Source: Marichromatium purpuratum 984 (GTDB lineage: Bacteria; Pseudomonadota; Gammaproteobacteria; Chromatiales; Chromatiaceae). From it: a stretch of DNA of 64,000 nt. The DNA lies in contig NZ_CP007031.1 of NCBI RefSeq assembly GCF_000224005.2, positions 1,165,501 through 1,229,500 on the forward strand, in the 5' to 3' direction. Under the pieces are notes generated by a model. That model was not told the DNA's origin, did not search any database, and saw only the letters and a list, made by a program, of their open reading frames with translations. Position 1 is the first letter of the stretch. Every line of letters begins with the position of its first letter. This document shows positions 5,883-59,865 of the stretch, piece by piece. The position numbers and the translations under genes are program-made.

Positions 5883-7237
5883 AAGGCTCGGACAAGTGTC
5901 TGTTGGTCGTCGAGGACGACCCCGGGTTGCAGAGCCAGCTGCGCTGGTGTTTCGACGGTTTCGAGGTGGTGCTCGCCGGTGATCGGCGCGAGGCGCTGGC
6001 TCAGTTGCGTCGTTACCGCCCCAGTGTGGTCACCCTGGACCTTGGCCTGCCTCCCGACCCTGGTGGCGTGAGCGAGGGCCTCGCGCTGCTCGAGGAGATC
6101 GTCGCCCTGGCCCCTCAGACCAAGGTCGTAGTGGTCACCGGCAACGATGATCGCAGCCACGCGCTCAAGGCGATCAGCCTCGGGGCCTACGATTTCTATC
6201 TCAAGCCAATCGATGCCGAGACCCTCAATCTGGTGGTCGAGCGCGGTCATCGGCTGCATGCGCTCGAGACCGAGAACCTTCGTCTGCAGCACAGTCAGAT
6301 GGACTCACCGCTGCGTGGCATCATCGCCAGTAGTACGCCGATGCTCGAGGTCTGTCGCGCGGTCGAGAAGGTTGCGCCGACCGATGTCACCACCCTGATC
6401 CTCGGCGAGAGCGGGACCGGCAAGGAGCTGTTTGCCCGCGCCCTGCACGAGATGGGGCCGCGCGCCTCGGGCCGGCTGGTGGCGATCAACTGTGCCGCCA
6501 TCCCCGAGAACCTGCTCGAGAGTGAGCTGTTCGGCTACGAGAAGGGAGCCTTCACCGGCGCGGTCAAGCAGACCCGGGGCAAGATCGAATACGCCGACGG
6601 TGGCACCCTGTTTCTCGACGAAATCGGCGACCTGTCGCAGCCGCTTCAGGCAAAACTGCTGCGTTTCTTGCAAGAGCGGGTGATCGAGCGTGTCGGTGGT
6701 CGTCAGGAGATTCCGGTCGACCTGCGGGTGATCTGCGCGACCCACCGCGATCTGCGGGCACAGATCGCCGAAGGGAGTTTTCGCGAGGATCTCTTTTATC
6801 GGGTCAGCGAGGTGACCATCACCCTGCCGCCGTTGCGCGATCGCGAGGGTGATCTGCTGGTGCTCGCCCGCGCCTTTCTTGAGCGCTATAACCGTGAGTA
6901 TGCCAAGACGGTTCGCGGTTTCACCAAGGATGCGCTCGCGGCGATGGAGACCTACAACTGGTCCGGTAATGTGCGCGAACTCGAGAGTCGGGTCAGGCGA
7001 GCGGTGATTATGGCCGATGGGCAACAGCTGACGCCCGCCGATCTCGAGCTGGCACCAGTCGGCGTCGAGCCGGCCCTGCCGCTGAGCCTGCAGCAGGTCC
7101 GTGAACAGGCCGAGACCCGGGCGATCCGCCAGGCGCTTGCCCGGGTCGACGGCAATATCACCCAGGCCGCGCGGTTGCTGGGCGTGACCCGGCCGACCCT
7201 GTACGGCCTGCTCGATAAATACGGACTCAAGGAATGA
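5879..7237 (+). CDS. prsR: Sigma-54-dependent response regulator PrsR (452 aa)
   Basis: The start is taken as the ATG at 5879, overlapping the prsK stop; a longer in-frame extension has no support. Receiver domain at 1-120 with phospho-acceptor Asp54 (TLDLGLP). AAA+ domain from about 150 with Walker A GESGTGKE, the GAFTGA sigma-54 contact motif ([13 protein letters not shown]) and an arginine-finger region. A Fis-type helix-turn-helix lies at the C-terminus ([18 protein letters not shown]). It is the cognate partner of PrsK and is expected to activate sigma-54 promoters of XrtA polysaccharide and PEP-CTERM genes, possibly including the site at 1518-1534. Confidence 0.94.
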
Positions 7238-44334: not shown

Positions 44335-44413
<79 letters not shown>

Positions 44414-44430: not shown

Positions 44431-44463
44431 AGCGGCTACGTAGATTTACGTAGCCGCTTTTTT
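44431..44463. terminator. Terminator after tRNA-Pro, overlapping the int 3' end
   Basis: AGCGGCTACGTA (44431-44442) pairs perfectly with 44447-44458 over a 4-base loop and is followed by TTTTTT (44458-44463). The stem also encodes the last residues and stop of the integrase on the - strand, so tRNA transcription is stopped before running antisense through int. Confidence 0.85.
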
Positions 44464-45525
44464 CTTGCCTGCACCGTCGGTGTGCCGGATAGTGTGCGAA
44501 ACTGCTCGCACAGGGGTTTCGATCTTGGCGGCATATTCCGCCAGATGTTCGGGGGCGAGGTGGGCGTATTTCTGCACCATCCCCAGATCGCTCCAGCCGC
44601 CGAGCTCCTGCAGAACGTGCAGCGGGGTACCGCCCTGCACGTGCCAGCTCGCCCACGTGTGACGCAAGTCATGCCACCTGAAGTTCTCGATCCCGGCGCG
44701 CCTCAACGCTTTTCTCCACGCTCCCCCTCCCGCCTTGGCGACCGGCATCCACTTGATCTCGCCGTCCGCCGGGTCCGTCCGGCGAAAGACAAAGACTCGG
44801 CGGGGGTGTCGCCCTTGCCACCGGCGCAATACCAGTACGGCGTCGGTGTTGAGAGGGATGCCGATGGCGCGCCGAGCCTTGGCCTGATCGGCGTGAATCC
44901 AGGCGACTCGGCGTGCCAGGTCAACTTGGCTCCACTCGAGCCCCGTCACATTGGACTCACGCAATCCGGTCGATAGCGAGAAGCGCGCCATGTCCGCTAA
45001 ATGCTCCGGCAGCTCCGCGATCAATCGATCTGCCTCATCCCTGGTCAACCACCGTATGCGCTTCTGCGGCTCCGGCAAGAGGGGGATGGTAGGCGCGTGA
45101 TCGATCCACTCCCAATTGCGCTCGGCGCGCCGCAAGATCGCGTGCGCGACCGACAGCATCCGGTTGATCGTGGCGTTGCTGACGTTTGTCGCGCTGCGCG
45201 CCGCCGCCAACGCGCGCAGCTTGGAGCGGGTGATCTCGTCAAGCATCAGCCCTGCGAAATGCGGATCGATCCAGCGCAGGTGGTAGAGATCATCCTCGTG
45301 GCTGGCCTTGTGTGATGTCTCCTCGATCCATCGCACCACCGCCTCTTCCCAGCTCCGGCGTGGCTTCTCGCCCATGCGAGCGCGACGCCAGTGCTCGCCT
45401 TTCAGTTTCGCTTCGTACTCCTCTGCTGCTTTCTTGTCCGCGGTGCCAGTAGACTGGCGTATCTCTTTGCCGCCCGCCGTGAATCGACACCACCAGTATC
45501 GGCTGTTCTTCCTGCGGTAGAGCAT
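44446..45525 (-). CDS. int: Phage tyrosine integrase (359 aa)
   Basis: N-terminal arm/SAM-like domain (MLYRRKNSRYWWCRFTAGGKEIRQSTGT, common start of phage integrases), core-binding domain at about 55-150, and a catalytic domain with Arg189 (STGLRESN), His285 and Arg288 (WHDLRHT), Trp311 in the H/W position and nucleophile Tyr320 (VQKYAHLAP). All catalytic residues are present. It should recombine attP with the tRNA-Pro 3' end. Confidence 0.95.
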   Translation of the reverse strand: MLYRRKNSRYWWCRFTAGGKEIRQSTGTADKKAAEEYEAKLKGEHWRRARMGEKPRRSWEEAVVRWIEETSHKASHEDDLYHLRWIDPHFAGLMLDEITRSKLRALAAARSATNVSNATINRMLSVAHAILRRAERNWEWIDHAPTIPLLPEPQKRIRWLTRDEADRLIAELPEHLADMARFSLSTGLRESNVTGLEWSQVDLARRVAWIHADQAKARRAIGIPLNTDAVLVLRRWQGRHPRRVFVFRRTDPADGEIKWMPVAKAGGGAWRKALRRAGIENFRWHDLRHTWASWHVQGGTPLHVLQELGGWSDLGMVQKYAHLAPEHLAEYAAKIETPVRAVSHTIRHTDGAGKKKAAT

Positions 45526-45725
45526 CTCTCACTCCTCGGCTCCGCCGCTCGCGCTGCACGGTCAGCATAGTGACCGCGCAGCCAGTCGGCCAGATCATCG
45601 TCGATGAAGACCCAGTGCTTCCCCGGCTTCGCGCTCGGGATCTCGCCAGCGACAGCGCGCCGGCGCAGCGTCTCTGGGTGCATCCGCAGGAACTCTGCGG
45701 CCTCGTGCAGGTCGAGCGTCCTCAT
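45402..45725 (-). CDS. Excisionase-like helix-turn-helix protein (107 aa)
   Basis: MRTLDLHEAAEFLRMHPETLRRRAVAGEIPSAKPGKHWVFIDDDLADWLRGHY is a MerR/excisionase-type HTH. A variable tail with a CSTAGRTADTGGVDS segment and RRAAKRYASLLAP follows, a form recognisable in HTH genes next to phage integrases. The last 124 bases overlap the start of int in another frame; both N-terminal int and C-terminal HTH sequences look genuine. Likely recombination directionality factor. Confidence 0.8.
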   Translation of the reverse strand: MRTLDLHEAAEFLRMHPETLRRRAVAGEIPSAKPGKHWVFIDDDLADWLRGHYADRAARAAEPRSERCSTAGRTADTGGVDSRRAAKRYASLLAPRTRKQQRSTKRN

Positions 45726-45934
45726 CGCGACCACTCCAGGCTGCGCCACTCATGCCGCCCCGCTCGCACAGTTACCGACCGCACCCCGGGCCGCCGCGCC
45801 CGCCGCCGGCCGATCCAGCGCGCGACAGTATGGCGATCGGCGTCGACCGCATCGGCTGCAGCGCTGATGCTTGCGCCGTGCTCGACCAGGTCGCGGGCGC
45901 GACGGCGAGCGGTTTCGGGGTGTGGTGTACTCAT
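45722..45934 (-). CDS. Small helix-turn-helix protein (70 aa)
   Basis: [48 protein letters not shown] contains a helix-turn-helix of the Hin/transposase-resolvase kind. GGAG precedes the ATG at suitable spacing, and both ends form ATGA overlaps with neighbouring genes, strong evidence of a translated operon member. Role unknown. Confidence 0.65.
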   Translation of the reverse strand: MSTPHPETARRRARDLVEHGASISAAADAVDADRHTVARWIGRRRARRPGVRSVTVRAGRHEWRSLEWSR

Positions 45935-46191
45935 ACCGCCATCTCCATTTGCGCGTCGCGCCTCGGCCCGTACTGATACTCCAGACGCACTCCTCGCAGC
46001 GCCTCGACTGCGCTGGCTCTCTGGAGCCAGATCGATTTCAGCTTCCCGTTCCCCCCTAGATCCTCGCCCATGGCGAGCTGCGCGCGCGTTATGTGGACGC
46101 CGGCGTGGACGAGGCAGTCCATCGCAGCCTCGATCTCGCGGATGGCTGGGGCGTCGTCTGGCACGACAGGACCGTCTTTGCCCCAGCTCAT
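45931..46191 (-). CDS. Uncharacterised phage protein (86 aa)
   Basis: Not recognised. [31 protein letters not shown]..., soluble, mixed charge. Stop and start overlap the flanking genes (ATGA on both sides), so it is part of the same - strand transcript as rdgC. Confidence 0.6.
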
Positions 46192-47342
46192 CGCAGTCCA
46201 CCTCGCTCAGTCGCCCTTCCGTGCCGCCGCGCGACCTCCAGCGCCAAGACCTCGCGATTGCCATTGGTCTCGGCTGGGCCGACGATGCCACTGCACTCCA
46301 TCTCCTCGATCAGGCGCGCGGCGCGGTTGTAGCCGATCTTGAGCCGGCGCTGCACCCCGGAGATGGAGGCGTGGCGGGTCTCGGTGACGATCTGCACCGC
46401 CTCGTCGAGCAGCGGGTCGGCGGCCTCGGCGTCGCTGCCCCGCACCCTGCCGAGACCGAACACCGTCTCGAGCCGCGCGAGCAGGTTGCGCAGCTGCAGC
46501 GCGAACAGCGCGAACTCGGTCTCGAAGCGCACCGCCGGGTCCTCGATCTCGTCGTCGAGGGTATCGAGCAGCCCCTCGGTCATGCGCAGCCGCCTCAGAG
46601 ACAGGTCGTCGGCGAGGGTGAAGCTGAAGCGCTCGTCCCAGGTCAGCGCAAGCTTGACCGCGCGCTTGCCGGTGCGCAGGTGGGCGAGCGCCTCGTCGCT
46701 GGTGGGGTCGCCACCGCTGATCCGCACCACGTCGGCCTCGTCGCTGGGGTCGCGCAGCTCGCAGGCGTCGCCGACGGTGAAGTAGGCCGGGGCGGTGTCG
46801 TCGAGCAGCCAGCGCGAGAGCACCTCGGCGGGGTGCTCGCTCGTCGGTGCTGGCGGTCGTGCCGACAGGCCGCCCAGGGTCTCGCGCAGCAGCGAGACGA
46901 CATCCTCGGCCTGCTTCTCGGTGGCCGCGTCGATCACCATCCAGCCACTCTTGGTGTCGAGGTAGGCGAGGGTGCGGCGCGAGCGGGTGAAGGCGCGCGG
47001 CAGCATCTCGTCGACGATCTGCTCGCGCAGCCGACGCCGCTCGGTGCGCCCGACCTCGCGCGACTCGCCGGCCTCGATCTCACCGATACGCTCCTCCAGT
47101 GCCTCCTTTACCGCCGCCGTCGGCAGCAGACGCTCCTGCTTGCGCGCGCAGATCAGCAGACAGCCCTCGAGGGGGTGGACCAGTGCACCGCCGTCCTCGC
47201 CGAGCGGCGCGCTCCAGCCCATGGTCGCGGTCTCCAGCGGACCGCAGGGTCGGAACCGACGTCCGGCGAGCTGGGTCTCCAGCTCCTGACCGTCGATGCG
47301 GACGGGTTGCTCGAGACGATAGAGTCTGGCGTTCTTGAACAT
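46188..47342 (-). CDS. rdgC: RdgC recombination protein fused to a C-terminal FtsK gamma domain (384 aa)
   Basis: Residues 1-300 are Rdg[109 protein letters not shown]. RdgC forms a ring on duplex DNA and limits RecA. Residues about 309-367 (DNA 46242-46418) are an FtsK gamma winged helix: [47 protein letters not shown]. In FtsK this domain reads KOPS and contacts XerD. E. coli RdgC is about 303 aa and lacks it. AAGGAG precedes the start. It sits with recT and a recE-like gene in the phage recombination operon. Confidence 0.92.
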
Positions 47343-47387: not shown

Positions 47388-48737
47388 TCAGAAGCGAACG
47401 GCTCGCGTCTCTAGGCTGTCGTCCAGTAGGTGGTCGTCCAGGTAGTTGCGCCGCTCGTGCTCGGCGCGCTCAATCTCGGCGCGATGACTGGGACCGATCG
47501 GGATCGTGCGCGACAGGTCGAGCCACTCGTCGATCGCGTCCACATCCTTGGCGGACGCGATACCGGTCAGGATGCGGTCGATGGTGAGCGGCGGCGCGGC
47601 AGATTGGTCCTGGCCCTGGTCCTGGCCGCTCTCGTCCGACGGCGGATTGGCGGTCGGGTCGCCCTCCTCATCCATCAGCTCCCGCTCGATCCGCTCGACA
47701 GTCATCGGGTCGACGCCGCGCTTGCGCCGCCACGACCCGTCGGCCGTGCGAGCCCGGCTCGACGAGTGGATGCGCTCATCCCAGGGGATGCCGCGGGCGT
47801 CGACGGCGTCGTCTCCGTCGCCGAGGCTGCCGTCGACCTCCTCCGGTGCCTGCTCTGAGGTGGTGCTCAGCGCGGCATTGCTTTGCGCTGAGGCCGCGTC
47901 AGCGCTGGTGCTGGGGCCGGTGCTGGAGTGGTGACCGGTGGTCGGCTTGAGGTTACCCCCCTCCGGCGTAACCGACGGCTGCTGGCCGCCTGCGATGGGG
48001 CTCTCGCGCTCGACGCTGGCCGCGAGATGAGTGTTAAGGTCAACCACCGTAGCGGCCACAGCGCGCTCCGGCAGCCGATCCTCATCTGCCTCGGCAGTCA
48101 TCGCATCTGCCATCTCGATCGACATCGGCAGGTACTTGAAGAGGCGGCGCATGACGGTCTTGCGTGCCATCTCGCTCCAATCGGTCACCCAGGGGCCGTT
48201 GCCTCCGGCCCGCGACCGCTTACGGACCGCCTCGACTTCAGCGCGCGTCATGACTTCGTATTGGATGCCGCCGTCACGCAGCTTGGCGACGGCGTAGACG
48301 TGCGTTACCTGGCCGGGGTCTTCGTCGGTACTGGGAATGTGGCGCAACTTCTCCTCAAGGCCGTACTCCAGCTCGAAGGTGTCGCGGGCATAGACCACGC
48401 GCGCGGTGATCGACTGGATCTCGCCGGAGCGACGCGCGAGCGCGATCATGCCGCGATAACCGATGATCAGCGTGCATTCAGTCTTGTAGGGGACGAGGTA
48501 GGCGTGCCCCATAGCCGAGCCGACTTCCAGGCCGAGCTGGCTCGCCTTGACGATCGCGCTCATGAGGCTGGTCGGGTTGCAATCCAGCAGCCTTGGATTC
48601 GTGCGCAGTTCGCCGAGCGCGACACGGCTCAGACGCTCGGCGGTCAAGTGCTTGGGCAGCGCCGCCGCGATGCTGTCGCGGTTCCTCTCCATCATCTGTG
48701 CGATGGTGGTGTAGTTCTGCTTCTGGGCAGGCAGCAT
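47388..48737 (-). CDS. recT: RecT-family single-strand annealing protein with long C-terminal tail (449 aa)
   Basis: RecT core at about 1-210: MLPAQKQNYTTIAQMMERNRDSIAAALPKHLTAERL, NPTSLMSAIVKASQLGLEV, HAYLVPYKTECTLIIGYRGMIALARRSG, WVTDWSEMARKTVMRRLFKYLP. Residues 215-449 are a low-complexity acidic/Ser/Pro tail containing the segment GIPWDERIHSSSRARTADGS followed by WRRKRGVDP, a motif seen in other phage DNA proteins. Usual RecT is about 270 aa. GAGGAGG precedes the ATG. It pairs with the nuclease encoded upstream. Confidence 0.92.
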   Translation of the reverse strand: MLPAQKQNYTTIAQMMERNRDSIAAALPKHLTAERLSRVALGELRTNPRLLDCNPTSLMSAIVKASQLGLEVGSAMGHAYLVPYKTECTLIIGYRGMIALARRSGEIQSITARVVYARDTFELEYGLEEKLRHIPSTDEDPGQVTHVYAVAKLRDGGIQYEVMTRAEVEAVRKRSRAGGNGPWVTDWSEMARKTVMRRLFKYLPMSIEMADAMTAEADEDRLPERAVAATVVDLNTHLAASVERESPIAGGQQPSVTPEGGNLKPTTGHHSSTGPSTSADAASAQSNAALSTTSEQAPEEVDGSLGDGDDAVDARGIPWDERIHSSSRARTADGSWRRKRGVDPMTVERIERELMDEEGDPTANPPSDESGQDQGQDQSAAPPLTIDRILTGIASAKDVDAIDEWLDLSRTIPIGPSHRAEIERAEHERRNYLDDHLLDDSLETRAVRF

Positions 48738-48749
48738 GTCAGGTCCTCC

Positions 48750-49586
48750 TCACAGCGCCCAGGGCGCCAGTTCAATGGGTGAAATCTCGGTCGGATAGCC
48801 GGGCCAGCTCCCGGTGTCGACGCACTCTCGGTATGCATCCATCGCGCGGCGGATGCGGACGCCCCCGGCGTGCAGCTCACGCTCGCCGAGCTGGTAGAGC
48901 GCGACGCCGTGCGGCGGCTCGCTCTCGACGACGATGAACACGAAAGTCCGCTCGCCGAGGCCGGTGGCGCGGGCCGCGTCGATGTAGTGCGCCGCCTGCA
49001 TGTGGTAGCGCCACTGCCCGACCGCACGACGGAAGCCTTGCTCACTGGCGTCGGCGGCGGTCTTGAGGTCGACGATCACCTGATGGCCGCCGCAGACCCA
49101 ATCAGCACGCGCCTTGCAGGAGACGCCGTCGCGCTCCCACAGCATCGTCACCTCGGGGTCACCATCGGCGAGCAGGGCGCGGGCGAACGGCTGGGCTATG
49201 ACGGCGTCGCGCATCGCCTGCGCTCGCGTCATCTGGTCGGCGGTCACCACCAGCAGTCCTCGCGCCTCGGCGTCAGCCTGGAACTCTGCCCACTCCGCCT
49301 TGCCTGCCTTCGTGCGCCGATCGACGACCGGCGCAACGGTGTACTCCTCAAGGTCTGGCGTCAGCGTGAGCGCATGCACCAGGGTGCCGAGCGCCTGAGC
49401 CTGGGTCGGTTTGTGCGGCGACTCGATCGCGTGCCGGTAGTGCATCGGGCTGCGCTCGATGAGCATCAGGCCGTGCGAGGAGATCGCAGGCAGTCGCAGA
49501 TAGGTTTCGAATGGGATGCCGTGATGCACGCCCAGCGGATACCCATCGACGCTGGCGTAATCCGCCGCCACAGCTACAGCACTCAC
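48750..49586 (-). CDS. RecE-like PD-(D/E)XK exonuclease (278 aa)
   Basis: HHGIPFETYLRLPAISSHGLMLIERSPMHYRHAI at the N-terminus is the RecE/exonuclease VIII nuclease-domain start; ALGTLVHALTLTP, CKARADWVCGGHQVIVDLKTAADAS (D and D-x-K active site) and QAAHYIDAARA follow. The GTG start at 49586 overlaps the previous stop (GTGA). It provides 5'-3' resection for RecT annealing. Confidence 0.88.
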   Translation of the reverse strand: MSAVAVAADYASVDGYPLGVHHGIPFETYLRLPAISSHGLMLIERSPMHYRHAIESPHKPTQAQALGTLVHALTLTPDLEEYTVAPVVDRRTKAGKAEWAEFQADAEARGLLVVTADQMTRAQAMRDAVIAQPFARALLADGDPEVTMLWERDGVSCKARADWVCGGHQVIVDLKTAADASEQGFRRAVGQWRYHMQAAHYIDAARATGLGERTFVFIVVESEPPHGVALYQLGERELHAGGVRIRRAMDAYRECVDTGSWPGYPTEISPIELAPWAL

Positions 49587-52056: not shown

Positions 52057-52254
52057 ATGGACGCAAACACTGTGATCGATGCTCTCGGCGGTACCGCTGC
52101 CACGGCCAAGCTCTGCAAGGTGCGCCCGCCGTCCGTCTCTGGGTGGCGCAAGAACGGCATCCCTGAGTACCGCTTGGACTACCTACGGCTCGCGCGCCCG
52201 GAAGTGTTCCGCAGCCTGGGCGACCCTACCCAGACGCCCCGCGCCGCCGCCTAA
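52057..52254 (+). CDS. cro: Cro-like repressor (65 aa)
   Basis: MDANTVIDALGGTAATAKLCKVRPPSVSGWRKNGIPEYRLDYLRLARPEVF is a YdaS/Cro-type helix-turn-helix. The ATG at 52057 is chosen over 52039 because the latter lies inside the operator and upstream of the -10 box. It is the first gene of the rightward transcript, opposite the CI-like gene. Confidence 0.85.
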   Translation: MDANTVIDALGGTAATAKLCKVRPPSVSGWRKNGIPEYRLDYLRLARPEVFRSLGDPTQTPRAAA

Positions 52255-57851: not shown

Positions 57852-59865
57852 TCGCTACGCCAGCGCCCAGGGCATCAGCCGCGATGTCGCCGACATCATC
57901 CGCCCGCCGCGGCGCGTGGCCGTCTCGACCTGCGCCGCCGAGGTCGTGCGCATCGAGACCCCGGGTGGTTACTCCGGCCCCTGGGATGCGCAGCTCACAC
58001 CCTACATGGCCGAGCCGATGGACCTGCTCAAAAGCCGCCGGCACGAGGCCGTGGTCTTCGTCTCGCCGGCGCGTACCGGTAAGACCCAGGCCCTTCTCGA
58101 CGGCTGGCTCGCGCACTGCGTGACGGCCGACCCCGGCGATATGGGCCTCTACTTCCCGACCCAAACCCTGGCCTACGACTACCGCAAGCGTCGCATCGAG
58201 CGACTACACCGCAACAGCCCGCGACTACGCGAGCGCCTCAGCCCGCGCAAGCACGACACCACCATCGAGATGATCGCCTACCGCAACGGGATGATCCTCA
58301 ACCTCGGCTGGCCGACCAGCTCGCAGCTCGCGCAGCGCGACCTGCGCTATGTGGCGATGACCGACTACGACTCGTTCCCCGACGACATCGGCGGCGAGGG
58401 CGAGCCCTTCGGCCTGGCCCGCAAGCGCACCCAGGTGGCGATGTCGGCAGGCATGACGCTGGTCGAGTCCAGCCCCAAGCGCGAACTCGTCACCAACCAG
58501 TGGACACCGGACGGCCCGCACGCCGCGCCGCCGGTCAAGGGCGGCATCCTGCCGCTCTACAACCGCGGTGACCGGCGCCGCTGGTACTGGCCGTGCCTTG
58601 ATGGCTGCGGCGCGCGCTTCGAGCCCCCCGCCATGCCGCTCTACGACGAGGCTGAAACCATCGAGGCCTCCGCCGCGACGGCACACATCTGCTGTCCGCA
58701 CTGCGGGACGCGCTACCTGCCGCACGACAAGCGCCGACTCAACATTGCCGGACACTGGTTTCGCGAGGGCGAACTCGACGGCTCGCCGCGCACCGCTGCG
58801 ATTGCCTCCTATTGGGTGCTCGGCTGCGCCGCGGCATTCCAGCAGTGGGAGTCGCTCGTCACCAACGCGCTGCTCGCCCAGCGCGAACTCGAGGCGAGCG
58901 GCGATGAGACCGCGCTGCGCCAGACCACCAACACCGACCAAGGCATGCCCTACATGCCGCGCGCCATGGCCGAGTCCCGAGGCGCCGAGTCCCTGGCCGC
59001 CCGCATCGAGGAGGCCGAGCGCTATCGCGTGCCGGACGGCGTGCGCCTCCTGCTGGCCGCTGTCGACGTCCAGGGCAACCGCTTTGAGGTCTGCGTGATC
59101 GGCTTCGGTATCGGCGGCGAGCGCTGGATCGTCGACCGCTACGCCATCCGCAAGACCGCTGCCGGCGAGCCCCTGCAGCCCGCCGTCATGCAAGAGCACT
59201 GGAGTGAGCTCACCGATCGCGTCATCAACGCCACCTACCGACTACCCGACGACCGCGAACTGCGCGTCTACCGCACCGGGGTCGATCTCGGCGGCTACGC
59301 CAACCGCGCCAAGGGCGCCGACTCGACCGCGCGCGCCTACGCCTGGTGGCGCGAGCTGCGTCGCGCCGGGCTCGCGCACCGCGCCCGCCTCGTGCGTGGC
59401 GACGGCTCGAGGAGCGCCCAACTGGTGCGCGAGACCCTGCCCGACACCAGCAAACGGCACGATCGCAAGTCCGGCAGTCGCGGCGACGTGCCGGTGCTTA
59501 TCCTCAACGCCGATCGCATCAAGGACCGCGTCTCGGCCGATCTCGCGCGCGACGTCCCGGGGCCGGGCTACATCCACCTGCCGTCCTGGCTCAGCCGCGC
59601 CCAGCGCGACGAGCTCACCGCGGAGCAGCGCACCCCCGACGGCTGGCGACAGATCGGCAACCGCCGCAACGAGACCTGGGACCTGCTCTGCTACGCCGAG
59701 GCGCTATGGCTCCATTGCGGTGGCGACCGCATCGACTGGGCACGCCCCCCGGCCTGGGCCGAGGCCTGGACCGACAACACCGAGGTCGTCACCGCCGACC
59801 AGCGCCGCGCCCTCAAGGCCACTCACCGCCCGGGCGTCCGGCGCCGCGCCTCGCAATGGTGGTAG
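57841..59865 (+). CDS. Terminase large subunit, lambda GpA-type (674 aa)
   Basis: The ATG at 57841 has GGAGG upstream and overlaps the small subunit gene by 11 bases. ATPase: adenine/Walker A region FVSPARTGKTQALLDG (Lys81), Walker B YVAMTDYDSFPDD. A zinc-binding CPHCG follows (about 280-290) and the nuclease domain has VDVQGNRFEV (Asp), a conserved TGVDLGGY and a C-terminal DLLCYAEALW. Length close to GpA (641 aa). Translocates DNA into the prohead and cuts the ends. Confidence 0.95.
   Translation: MPVDRYASAQGISRDVADIIRPPRRVAVSTCAAEVVRIETPGGYSGPWDAQLTPYMAEPMDLLKSRRHEAVVFVSPARTGKTQALLDGWLAHCVTADPGDMGLYFPTQTLAYDYRKRRIERLHRNSPRLRERLSPRKHDTTIEMIAYRNGMILNLGWPTSSQLAQRDLRYVAMTDYDSFPDDIGGEGEPFGLARKRTQVAMSAGMTLVESSPKRELVTNQWTPDGPHAAPPVKGGILPLYNRGDRRRWYWPCLDGCGARFEPPAMPLYDEAETIEASAATAHICCPHCGTRYLPHDKRRLNIAGHWFREGELDGSPRTAAIASYWVLGCAAAFQQWESLVTNALLAQRELEASGDETALRQTTNTDQGMPYMPRAMAESRGAESLAARIEEAERYRVPDGVRLLLAAVDVQGNRFEVCVIGFGIGGERWIVDRYAIRKTAAGEPLQPAVMQEHWSELTDRVINATYRLPDDRELRVYRTGVDLGGYANRAKGADSTARAYAWWRELRRAGLAHRARLVRGDGSRSAQLVRETLPDTSKRHDRKSGSRGDVPVLILNADRIKDRVSADLARDVPGPGYIHLPSWLSRAQRDELTAEQRTPDGWRQIGNRRNETWDLLCYAEALWLHCGGDRIDWARPPAWAEAWTDNTEVVTADQRRALKATHRPGVRRRASQWW

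Follow-up and report, generated by a model that had tools for sequence, protein, structure and literature searches.

An in-frame fusion of RdgC to the FtsK gamma domain in a Marichromatium purpuratum prophage, and its reading as a possibly addressed DNA ring

A prophage in the 64,000-nucleotide stretch of Marichromatium purpuratum 984 analysed here (contig NZ_CP007031.1, positions 1,165,501 to 1,229,500; hereafter the window) carries a gene, rdgC-gamma, in which RdgC runs in frame into the gamma domain of the DNA translocase FtsK, and the question raised by this locus is what an RdgC protein would gain from a domain that reads FtsK-orienting polar sequences (KOPS) and contacts XerD. So far, KOPS have mostly been seen as signals that the chromosome gives to FtsK. 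Passages of PMC11077077 describe RdgC as a ring-forming dimer with no sequence preference in its DNA binding, and one that lowers both RecA strand exchange and the cleavage of LexA. Our preferred reading, to which we give a probability of about 0.48, is that RdgC-gamma is an addressed DNA ring, gamma giving the sequence-blind ring an address among the targets of FtsK (KOPS, perhaps XerD). The RdgC half, judging from its family and fold, would supply a ring-shaped dimer that binds duplex DNA and restrains RecA, and gamma, tethered by a short flexible linker as it is in FtsK, would read the targets of FtsK. Rings would be loaded or held preferentially at KOPS-type sequences, on phage DNA as well as on the host chromosome, which is far larger, perhaps also at XerD, and the phage could thereby pick where recombination by RecE/RecT and host RecA is restrained. 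Ring formation, KOPS binding, the effect on recombination and the identity of the target DNA are what we infer; the computed basis is that both domains are intact, that the KOPS residues are kept, that gamma is under purifying selection, that the fused state has changed repeatedly and that this copy was probably assembled from host genes. That gamma is elsewhere joined to DNA proteins, wherever its partner could be identified, was also counted in favour of the addressed ring.

The fusion is one intact frame, as the first-pass annotation of this DNA had proposed. The frame has zero internal stops across its 384 amino acids (aa), and both Pfam domains lie far above their curated cut-offs: RdgC (PF04381) with 347 bits versus 25, covering profile positions 3-296 of 298, and FtsK_gamma (PF09397) with 94.6 bits versus 30.6, a significant match for the residues (~309-367) that had been named as gamma (Table 1). 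The top NCBIfam model for the whole protein is that of RdgC (NF001464, E=8.2e-96), with concordant PHROGs matches, and its tail aligns to the end of the NCBIfam FtsK model (positions 1287-1350 of 1355). The ATPase motor and the membrane anchor of FtsK are absent, RdgC and FtsK_gamma being the only Pfam matches at E≤0.1. Solved relatives found by sequence were 2owl and 2owy for RdgC and 2j5o, 2ve8 and 2j5p for gamma. Structure prediction, which the first-pass annotation had also called for, recovered both folds and a loose linker in an AlphaFold monomer based on 36 aligned sequences (mean predicted local distance difference test, pLDDT, 90; predicted template modelling score 0.73), where the only stretches of at least three residues with pLDDT <50 were 301-305 and 371-384. 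By Foldseek, the RdgC half matched 2owl with a template modelling score (target) of 0.92-0.93, and 2owy too, and the gamma half matched the KOPS-bound P. aeruginosa FtsK gamma 2ve9 with a root-mean-square deviation (rmsd) of 0.7 Å and 70-71% identity. A sequencing artefact, such as a frameshift, is unlikely because the one-frame fusion recurs in relatives and both parts are under purifying selection: two diverged close relatives, L007 and L008 (the latter resembling G438, from the same genus), are fused in one frame too, and a 100%-identical fused copy lies in an IMG/VR provirus that possibly belongs to the same genome.

What the first-pass annotation missed is that the RdgC-gamma architecture is common in phages. 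The co-occurrence of PF04381 and PF09397 in one protein was found in many phages and proviruses: 477 stretches were confirmed in a search of IMG/VR, and in 80/80 of the best loci that were kept (36 after thinning at 92% identity) RdgC (≥293 profile positions) and gamma (≥58) share one open frame. In the phage collection 327 records match the whole protein or part of it, 147 of them with ≥80% coverage, and in a scan with a degenerate gamma DNA pattern RdgC-gamma made up 50/117 gamma open reading frames (ORFs) among the matches listed. Named phages fused in one frame include P. aeruginosa PA8, Vibrio K478b, phiVP505, K279, D60 and 252E42.2, Pararheinheimera KLER1-1 and P. fluorescens Skulduggery. 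Beyond phage records, RdgC-gamma occurs on the P. aeruginosa plasmid pNY5530 and at loci in Serratia and Marinomonas genomes. The pNY5530 gene is a full RdgC-gamma (L072:5995-7149), of which the plasmid's incomplete PLSDB gene table lists the tail only, as DNA translocase FtsK.

The pooled ratio of nonsynonymous to synonymous differences (pN/pS) over 21 disjoint viral RdgC-gamma pairs was 0.132 for RdgC and 0.175 for gamma, which is purifying in both; gamma is therefore kept for its sequence. The residues by which FtsK recognizes its targets were then mapped to E. coli FtsK, with a constant offset of 957 and 8/9 named residues identical, and the window gamma keeps the XerD-contact set with one swap, K335 for R1292. 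According to passages of PMC2680272, FtsK with the triple alanine substitution of R1300, E1303 and E1306 is KOPS-blind, and R1300A or E1303A is KOPS-defective yet supports XerCD-dif recombination. Among 53 nonredundant RdgC-gammas, 51 have a complete Q-R-G-N contact set and 36 a complete R/E/E KOPS set (D allowed at 346). KOPS reading thus seems within reach of most RdgC-gammas, the window copy among them, and in roughly one third the reading residue has been changed.

These counts and the single-substitution phenotypes speak for a rival reading in which gamma is kept for protein contact: RdgC-gamma would then dock at dif-bound XerD or on DNA carrying XerCD, where it might activate dimer resolution, block it, or keep RecA-type recombination off dif. 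According to PMC5052618, however, the XerD contacts (Q1288, R1289, R1292, I1293, G1294 and N1296) all number among the DNA-contact residues of that one surface, so that conservation cannot separate KOPS reading from XerD docking. Moreover, the prophage encodes its own integrase and has no dif-like site with ≤3 mismatches to the pattern used, the three hits being at chromosome positions 1812284, 1812291 and 56920. We regard docking on XerD as an unlikely explanation.

Several observations weigh against an addressed ring, and the first concerns the recognition helix itself. At residue 343, the R1300 equivalent, 17/53 RdgC-gammas carry W, H, E, N, A, S or Y (W343 occurring together with Q349 in two loci, L193 and L226) versus R in 44/44 FtsKs, 27/27 when nonredundant (Fisher p=0.0004, relatedness ignored). 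None of the 44 FtsK gammas was fetched by the residue-343 pattern; 40 were taken by position in score-ranked lists, whose ranking may favour canonical gammas, and 4 by family search. Canonical KOPS are so probably not the target of all RdgC-gammas, and the altered residue fits a re-tuned DNA specificity, or a loss of KOPS reading with XerD contact retained. Secondly, the recognition region of gamma has been rewritten in L008 (match 6001-7107) and G438:C17:16940-18067, which compared to the window copy are 94% identical in RdgC and 60% in linker plus gamma, with nonsynonymous to synonymous substitution ratios (dN/dS) of 0.17 for the RdgC half and 0.81 for linker plus gamma, and whose gamma scores 53.8 bits versus 98.4.

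Both observations would be expected if gamma were an ordinary winged helix re-pointed in each phage lineage, for example to a phage origin, pac or an operator, with the FtsK link being a matter of history. The FtsK recognition residues are unchanged in the window copy and in most relatives, and the window gamma is 86% identical to the host FtsK gamma, which argues against such a re-tuned anchor and leaves it, in our view, a doubtful alternative. The diverged L008/G438 gamma would also suit an accidental read-through fusion whose gamma has no selected function; that explanation was already disfavoured, and the purifying selection over the 21 pairs together with the repeated change of the fused state (see below) makes it very improbable.

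The same caution is imposed by the distribution of KOPS. The first-pass annotation had suggested that RdgC might be placed at KOPS or near dif to steer recombination of phage DNA, and had proposed counting and orienting the KOPS of the prophage: the prophage has 1 on the plus and 5 on the minus strand, against 10 and 3, respectively, in the left host flank (p=0.04, on small numbers). The best dif candidate lies at 1.812 Mb of the chromosome, so the KOPS of the host flank point towards dif and those of the prophage mostly away. In 47 whole RdgC-gamma records (2.55 Mb) there were 300 KOPS versus 223 reversed-motif hits, and in 29 records with a gamma-free RdgC (1.48 Mb) 184 versus 146, so that no KOPS excess of RdgC-gamma phages over RdgC-alone phages was found (Fisher p=0.67); one of the 29 comparison records, L282, carries a gamma on an NA37 protein, and no full-record search for further gammas was made in any of them. 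KOPS did not cluster near the rdgC-gamma gene either (47 sites, 36 loci). A forward-strand excess in 11-kb pieces from 37 nonredundant loci (26 versus 14.5 expected; reverse 22 versus 18.5) was lost in whole records, with 139 sites on the gene strand and 161 on the opposite one, and KOPS enrichment was rejected as a proof of self-targeting, the whole-record counts showing none relative to RdgC-alone phages.

The strand polarity of KOPS in RdgC-gamma phages gave a suggestive signal, with an excess of 0.53 (same-genome reversed-motif control 0.14) versus 0.22 (control 0.08) in RdgC-alone phages (bootstrap P=0.02). This signal is, however, confounded by phage type: nine RecT phages, of unchecked gamma status, gave 0.33 with a control of 0.21, and 24 phages with other gamma proteins gave 0.70 but with a control of 0.48. 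Scans for RecT and for lambda-P relatives, intended as a matched temperate-phage control, gave 12 and 3 loci, too few, and nine of the RecT loci were used. Thus, the KOPS counts do not support self-targeting, and the host chromosome, with 719 KOPS versus 575 reversed-motif hits and a site about every 5 kb, would be a likelier target place than phage DNA.

A further point has to be set against the addressed ring. FtsK has six gammas, each on a 10-residue linker to its DNA ring, and one KOPS is probably read by three of them (according to passages of PMC5357621), where an RdgC dimer would offer two. As to the operon, RecET genes were found near RdgC-gamma in 2/36 loci only, in a low-sensitivity search with three RecT and three nuclease queries, and RecET was dropped as a general partner. 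The interpretation given by the first-pass annotation consequently holds in part: the RdgC-gamma fusion in a recET operon is real and its KOPS and XerD residues are kept, whereas no KOPS excess over RdgC-alone phages, no dif-like site in the prophage with ≤3 mismatches and, in the low-sensitivity search, no RecET linkage beyond these two loci were found.

Where the fusion came from can be followed more closely. The host genome is a single 3.78-Mb contig with a chromosomal full-length RdgC at 2.74 Mb and FtsK at 2.69 Mb, the two genes lying 46 kb apart; by family search it holds two gammas, those of FtsK and of the prophage RdgC-gamma, and 7/195 genomes of the order carry ≥2. The host ftsK region is 97.2% identical to that of Marichromatium gracile DSM 203 over 4.3 kb. 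A separate rdgC fragment, perhaps the remains of another prophage, lies outside the window at 2152194-2152325 (plus strand) of the chromosome and covers profile positions 21-63.

A tree was built by a quick method from RdgC domains thinned at 92% identity, 123 in all, of which 49 are fused, 45 chromosomal and 29 from phages without gamma on RdgC; several long rows were flagged, and the place of the window copy is starred, the deep fused groups being uncertain. The window RdgC and the host's chromosomal RdgC are sisters (starred branch, 99); the window copy falls inside the chromosomal RdgCs of its family (starred, 98) and apart from other fusions. The RdgC half is 91.4% identical to host rdgC at the nucleotide level, with a synonymous divergence (dS) of 0.175, and the gamma half is 91.0% identical to the host ftsK gamma, with a dS of 0.165 (7 synonymous differences in 63 codons). 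The best-scoring gammas outside the proviruses of the genus are those of chromosomal FtsKs, Sedimenticola and Marichromatium first (83-86% identity), and the best-scoring other phage gamma is 68% identical to the window gamma; the gamma tree, with 62 columns and few supported forks, served for nearest rows only. The simplest reading of these sequences is that the window copy was probably built locally, in a single recent event, out of the host's rdgC and ftsK, the alternative being an older fusion that exchanged both halves with host genes.

Other viruses have also joined RdgC and gamma, apparently more than once. The fused state changes at least 17 times on the tree, at least 12 of these changes being forced by starred branches; the number counts gains and losses together, which are not separable from it. 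Phage PA8 points to a second route. Phage H66, whose RdgC shares 99% identity with that of PA8, is without gamma, and in the relatives L282 and L285 a gamma-free rdgC is followed by a gene for an NA37 (PF04245) that ends in a gamma. In PA8 the interval between rdgC and a lexA-like gene lacks NA37, and the PA8 gamma shares 85% identity with the gamma of the L285 NA37-gamma, which suggests a deletion joining rdgC to the gamma of the neighbouring NA37 gene. The last eight residues of H66 NA37 are identical to the end of the PA8 gamma and look like a gamma remnant; gamma loss from NA37 would explain the state of H66.

RdgC is not the only phage protein to which gamma has been attached. NA37 (NdpA/YejK) with an FtsK gamma tail occurs in L282:3881-5185, L285:653-1993, L349:2-700 and L269:3942-4994; gamma together with a GapR DNA-binding domain in Rhodobacter phage RcKemmy gp60 (L086:3611-4945, two gamma stretches) and L379:4275-4994; and gamma inside DUF5906/VapE-like primase-helicases and a strawberry-notch type helicase in L333:1910-5182, L414:1386-4337, L427:1448-4021 and L344:1154-7435. 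In the largest non-RdgC gamma group among the matches listed, which holds L394, RecT lies on the same strand in 27/32 cases and within 210 bp in 22, and in mycobacteriophage Sejanus (L079:1208-4677) RecE and RecT are directly followed by a gamma protein (annotated sliding clamp beta) and RusA. Thus, the window gene fills a slot that is held by other gamma proteins in other phages.

A sliding clamp-gamma class was considered for Gordonia phage RayTheFireFly gp60 and Sejanus gp65, both annotated as DNA polymerase III beta clamp, and these were not counted as clamps. Neither has a Pfam clamp hit at E≤1 (a relative in phage Opie reaches E=0.29); gp60 has a weak PHROGs match to a processivity factor (E=0.006), and a PDB profile search with the gp65 family returned FtsK gamma, then weak unrelated matches and no clamp. 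The AlphaFold model of the Sejanus gamma protein has a pLDDT of 53. The gamma-bearing phi297 gp12 (L082:3479-4450, PHROG 6576) is annotated FtsK and has no motor in Pfam.

The existence of small phage gamma proteins of ~150-185 aa with no other Pfam domain, along with the probable capture of the window gamma from the host's own ftsK, would fit a decoy: phage gamma would sit on KOPS or on XerD and so hinder the host FtsK in infected or lysogenic cells, with RdgC mainly a carrier. Selection on RdgC is at least as strong as on gamma, which a mere carrier would not need, and the gamma partners that can be named handle DNA, so that a decoy seems to us quite improbable. Returning to the addressed ring, a broader proposal can be advanced tentatively, with less confidence than the reading of RdgC-gamma alone: the KOPS reader of FtsK may be a mobile address tag that phages attached time and again, in the present case anew out of the host's rdgC and ftsK, to proteins that encircle or coat DNA (RdgC, GapR, NA37, primase-helicases and terminase). 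Sequence-blind machines would in this way be placed and oriented by the polarity code of the host chromosome, and some lineages would have re-pointed the tag through the single KOPS-reading arginine. If phages do put a KOPS reader on recombination and replication proteins, the code would also be a target for mobile elements, the repeated viral fusions suggesting DNA machines steered by the host's own signposts; a sequence-blind RdgC ring would become a sequence-addressed one. Gamma fusions may also explain motor-less phage proteins annotated FtsK. Since the fused state has changed repeatedly, and one copy seems to be made from two genes of the present host, the function of gamma is directly testable apart from that of RdgC.

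RdgC and FtsK gamma are each familiar domains, and the literature already holds one fusion of gamma to a different phage protein; on the combination RdgC-gamma no paper was found in the open-access literature searched (subscription papers and preprints lying outside the search). With RdgC of E. coli and P. aeruginosa (2owl, 2owy) and phage RdgCs such as P1 HrdC, the window protein shares the complete PF04381 domain and the fold; the crystallised RdgCs have 303 and 306 residues and bind DNA without sequence preference (passages of PMC11077077), and the window protein adds a predicted sequence-reading tail. With the FtsK/SpoIIIE gamma (2ve8, 2ve9, 2j5p) it shares PF09397, a 0.7 Å rmsd, the same KOPS/XerD residues and a short linker to a DNA ring, but unlike FtsK it is without motor and membrane anchor, and its ring would by family be a dimer, not an ATP-driven hexamer. 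The published precedent for gamma on a phage DNA-handling protein is the small terminase of Bacillus phages Sam46 and Sam112 (PMC8190038), where the partner is TerS and gamma is N-terminal, unlike the C-terminal gamma on RdgC; that paper calls the role of single gamma genes unknown, with RdgC mentioned 0 times in its main text. NA37-gamma of F116-like phages (L282, L285, L349) resembles the window protein in having a C-terminal gamma on a nucleoid-type protein, beside rdgC in L282 and L285; the carrier is another one, and the relative PA8 has gamma on RdgC. Lambda RexA, which has the RdgC fold, is likewise a phage-encoded DNA-binding dimer of RdgC type, with a role in exclusion and lysogeny and no gamma mentioned in the passages of PMC11077077 that describe it.

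As shown in Table 1, the gene lies in an operon with RecT and a RecE-like nuclease, adjacent and on the same strand, as the first-pass annotation had stated for this prophage. The order on the minus strand is RecE-like nuclease, RecT, RdgC-gamma, an 86-aa ORF, an HTH_17 protein and the integrase.

Table 1. Features of the rdgC-gamma gene and of the surrounding prophage (window coordinates).
Feature	Position	Strand	Description
rdgC-gamma coding sequence	46188-47342	minus	384 aa, both domains; ATG at 47342, stop codon 46190-46188
RdgC domain	46455-47339	minus	residues 2-296; PF04381 E=1.2e-103; fold 2owl
Linker	46425-46454	minus	residues 297-306; AlphaFold pLDDT <50 at 301-305
FtsK gamma winged helix	46245-46424	minus	residues 307-366; PF09397 E=2.9e-27; 2ve9 rmsd 0.7 Å
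XerD-contact equivalents	46326-46352	minus	residues 331-339: Q331, R332, K335, I336, G337, N339 = E. coli Q1288, R1289, R1292, I1293, G1294, N1296
Recognition helix	46296-46316	minus	R343, E346, E349 = R1300, E1303, E1306
RecT	47388-48737	minus	PF03837 E=1.6e-51; immediately upstream of rdgC-gamma, same operon
RecE-like PD-(D/E)XK nuclease	48750-49586	minus	PF12684 E=5.6e-31; PHROG 412 E=4.1e-81
86-aa ORF	45931-46191	minus	4-nucleotide overlap with rdgC-gamma stop; no Pfam or PHROG match
HTH_17 protein, excisionase-like position	45402-45749	minus	PF12728 E=5.6e-11
Tyrosine integrase	44446-45525	minus	PF00589 E=2.2e-31
tRNA-Pro(ggg)	44335-44411	plus	adjoins integrase; possible integration locus
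KOPS GGGNAGGG	52224-52231	minus	in prophage
Further minus-strand KOPS in window	begin at 59435, 60303, 61657	minus	

By the coordinates of the IMG/VR provirus, the prophage starts with the integrase (44446), and its record of 33,834 bp extends past the end of the window. No direct repeat of ≥16 bp was found between tRNA-Pro and the next 40 kb. In a scan of the neighbours at 31 RdgC-gamma loci, where 150 of the 175 listed ORFs were run against Pfam, many were without any match, and the commonest named families were DNA methyltransferases (PF00145 in 10/150, Dam in 8/150 and MT-A70 in 5/150) and replication proteins.

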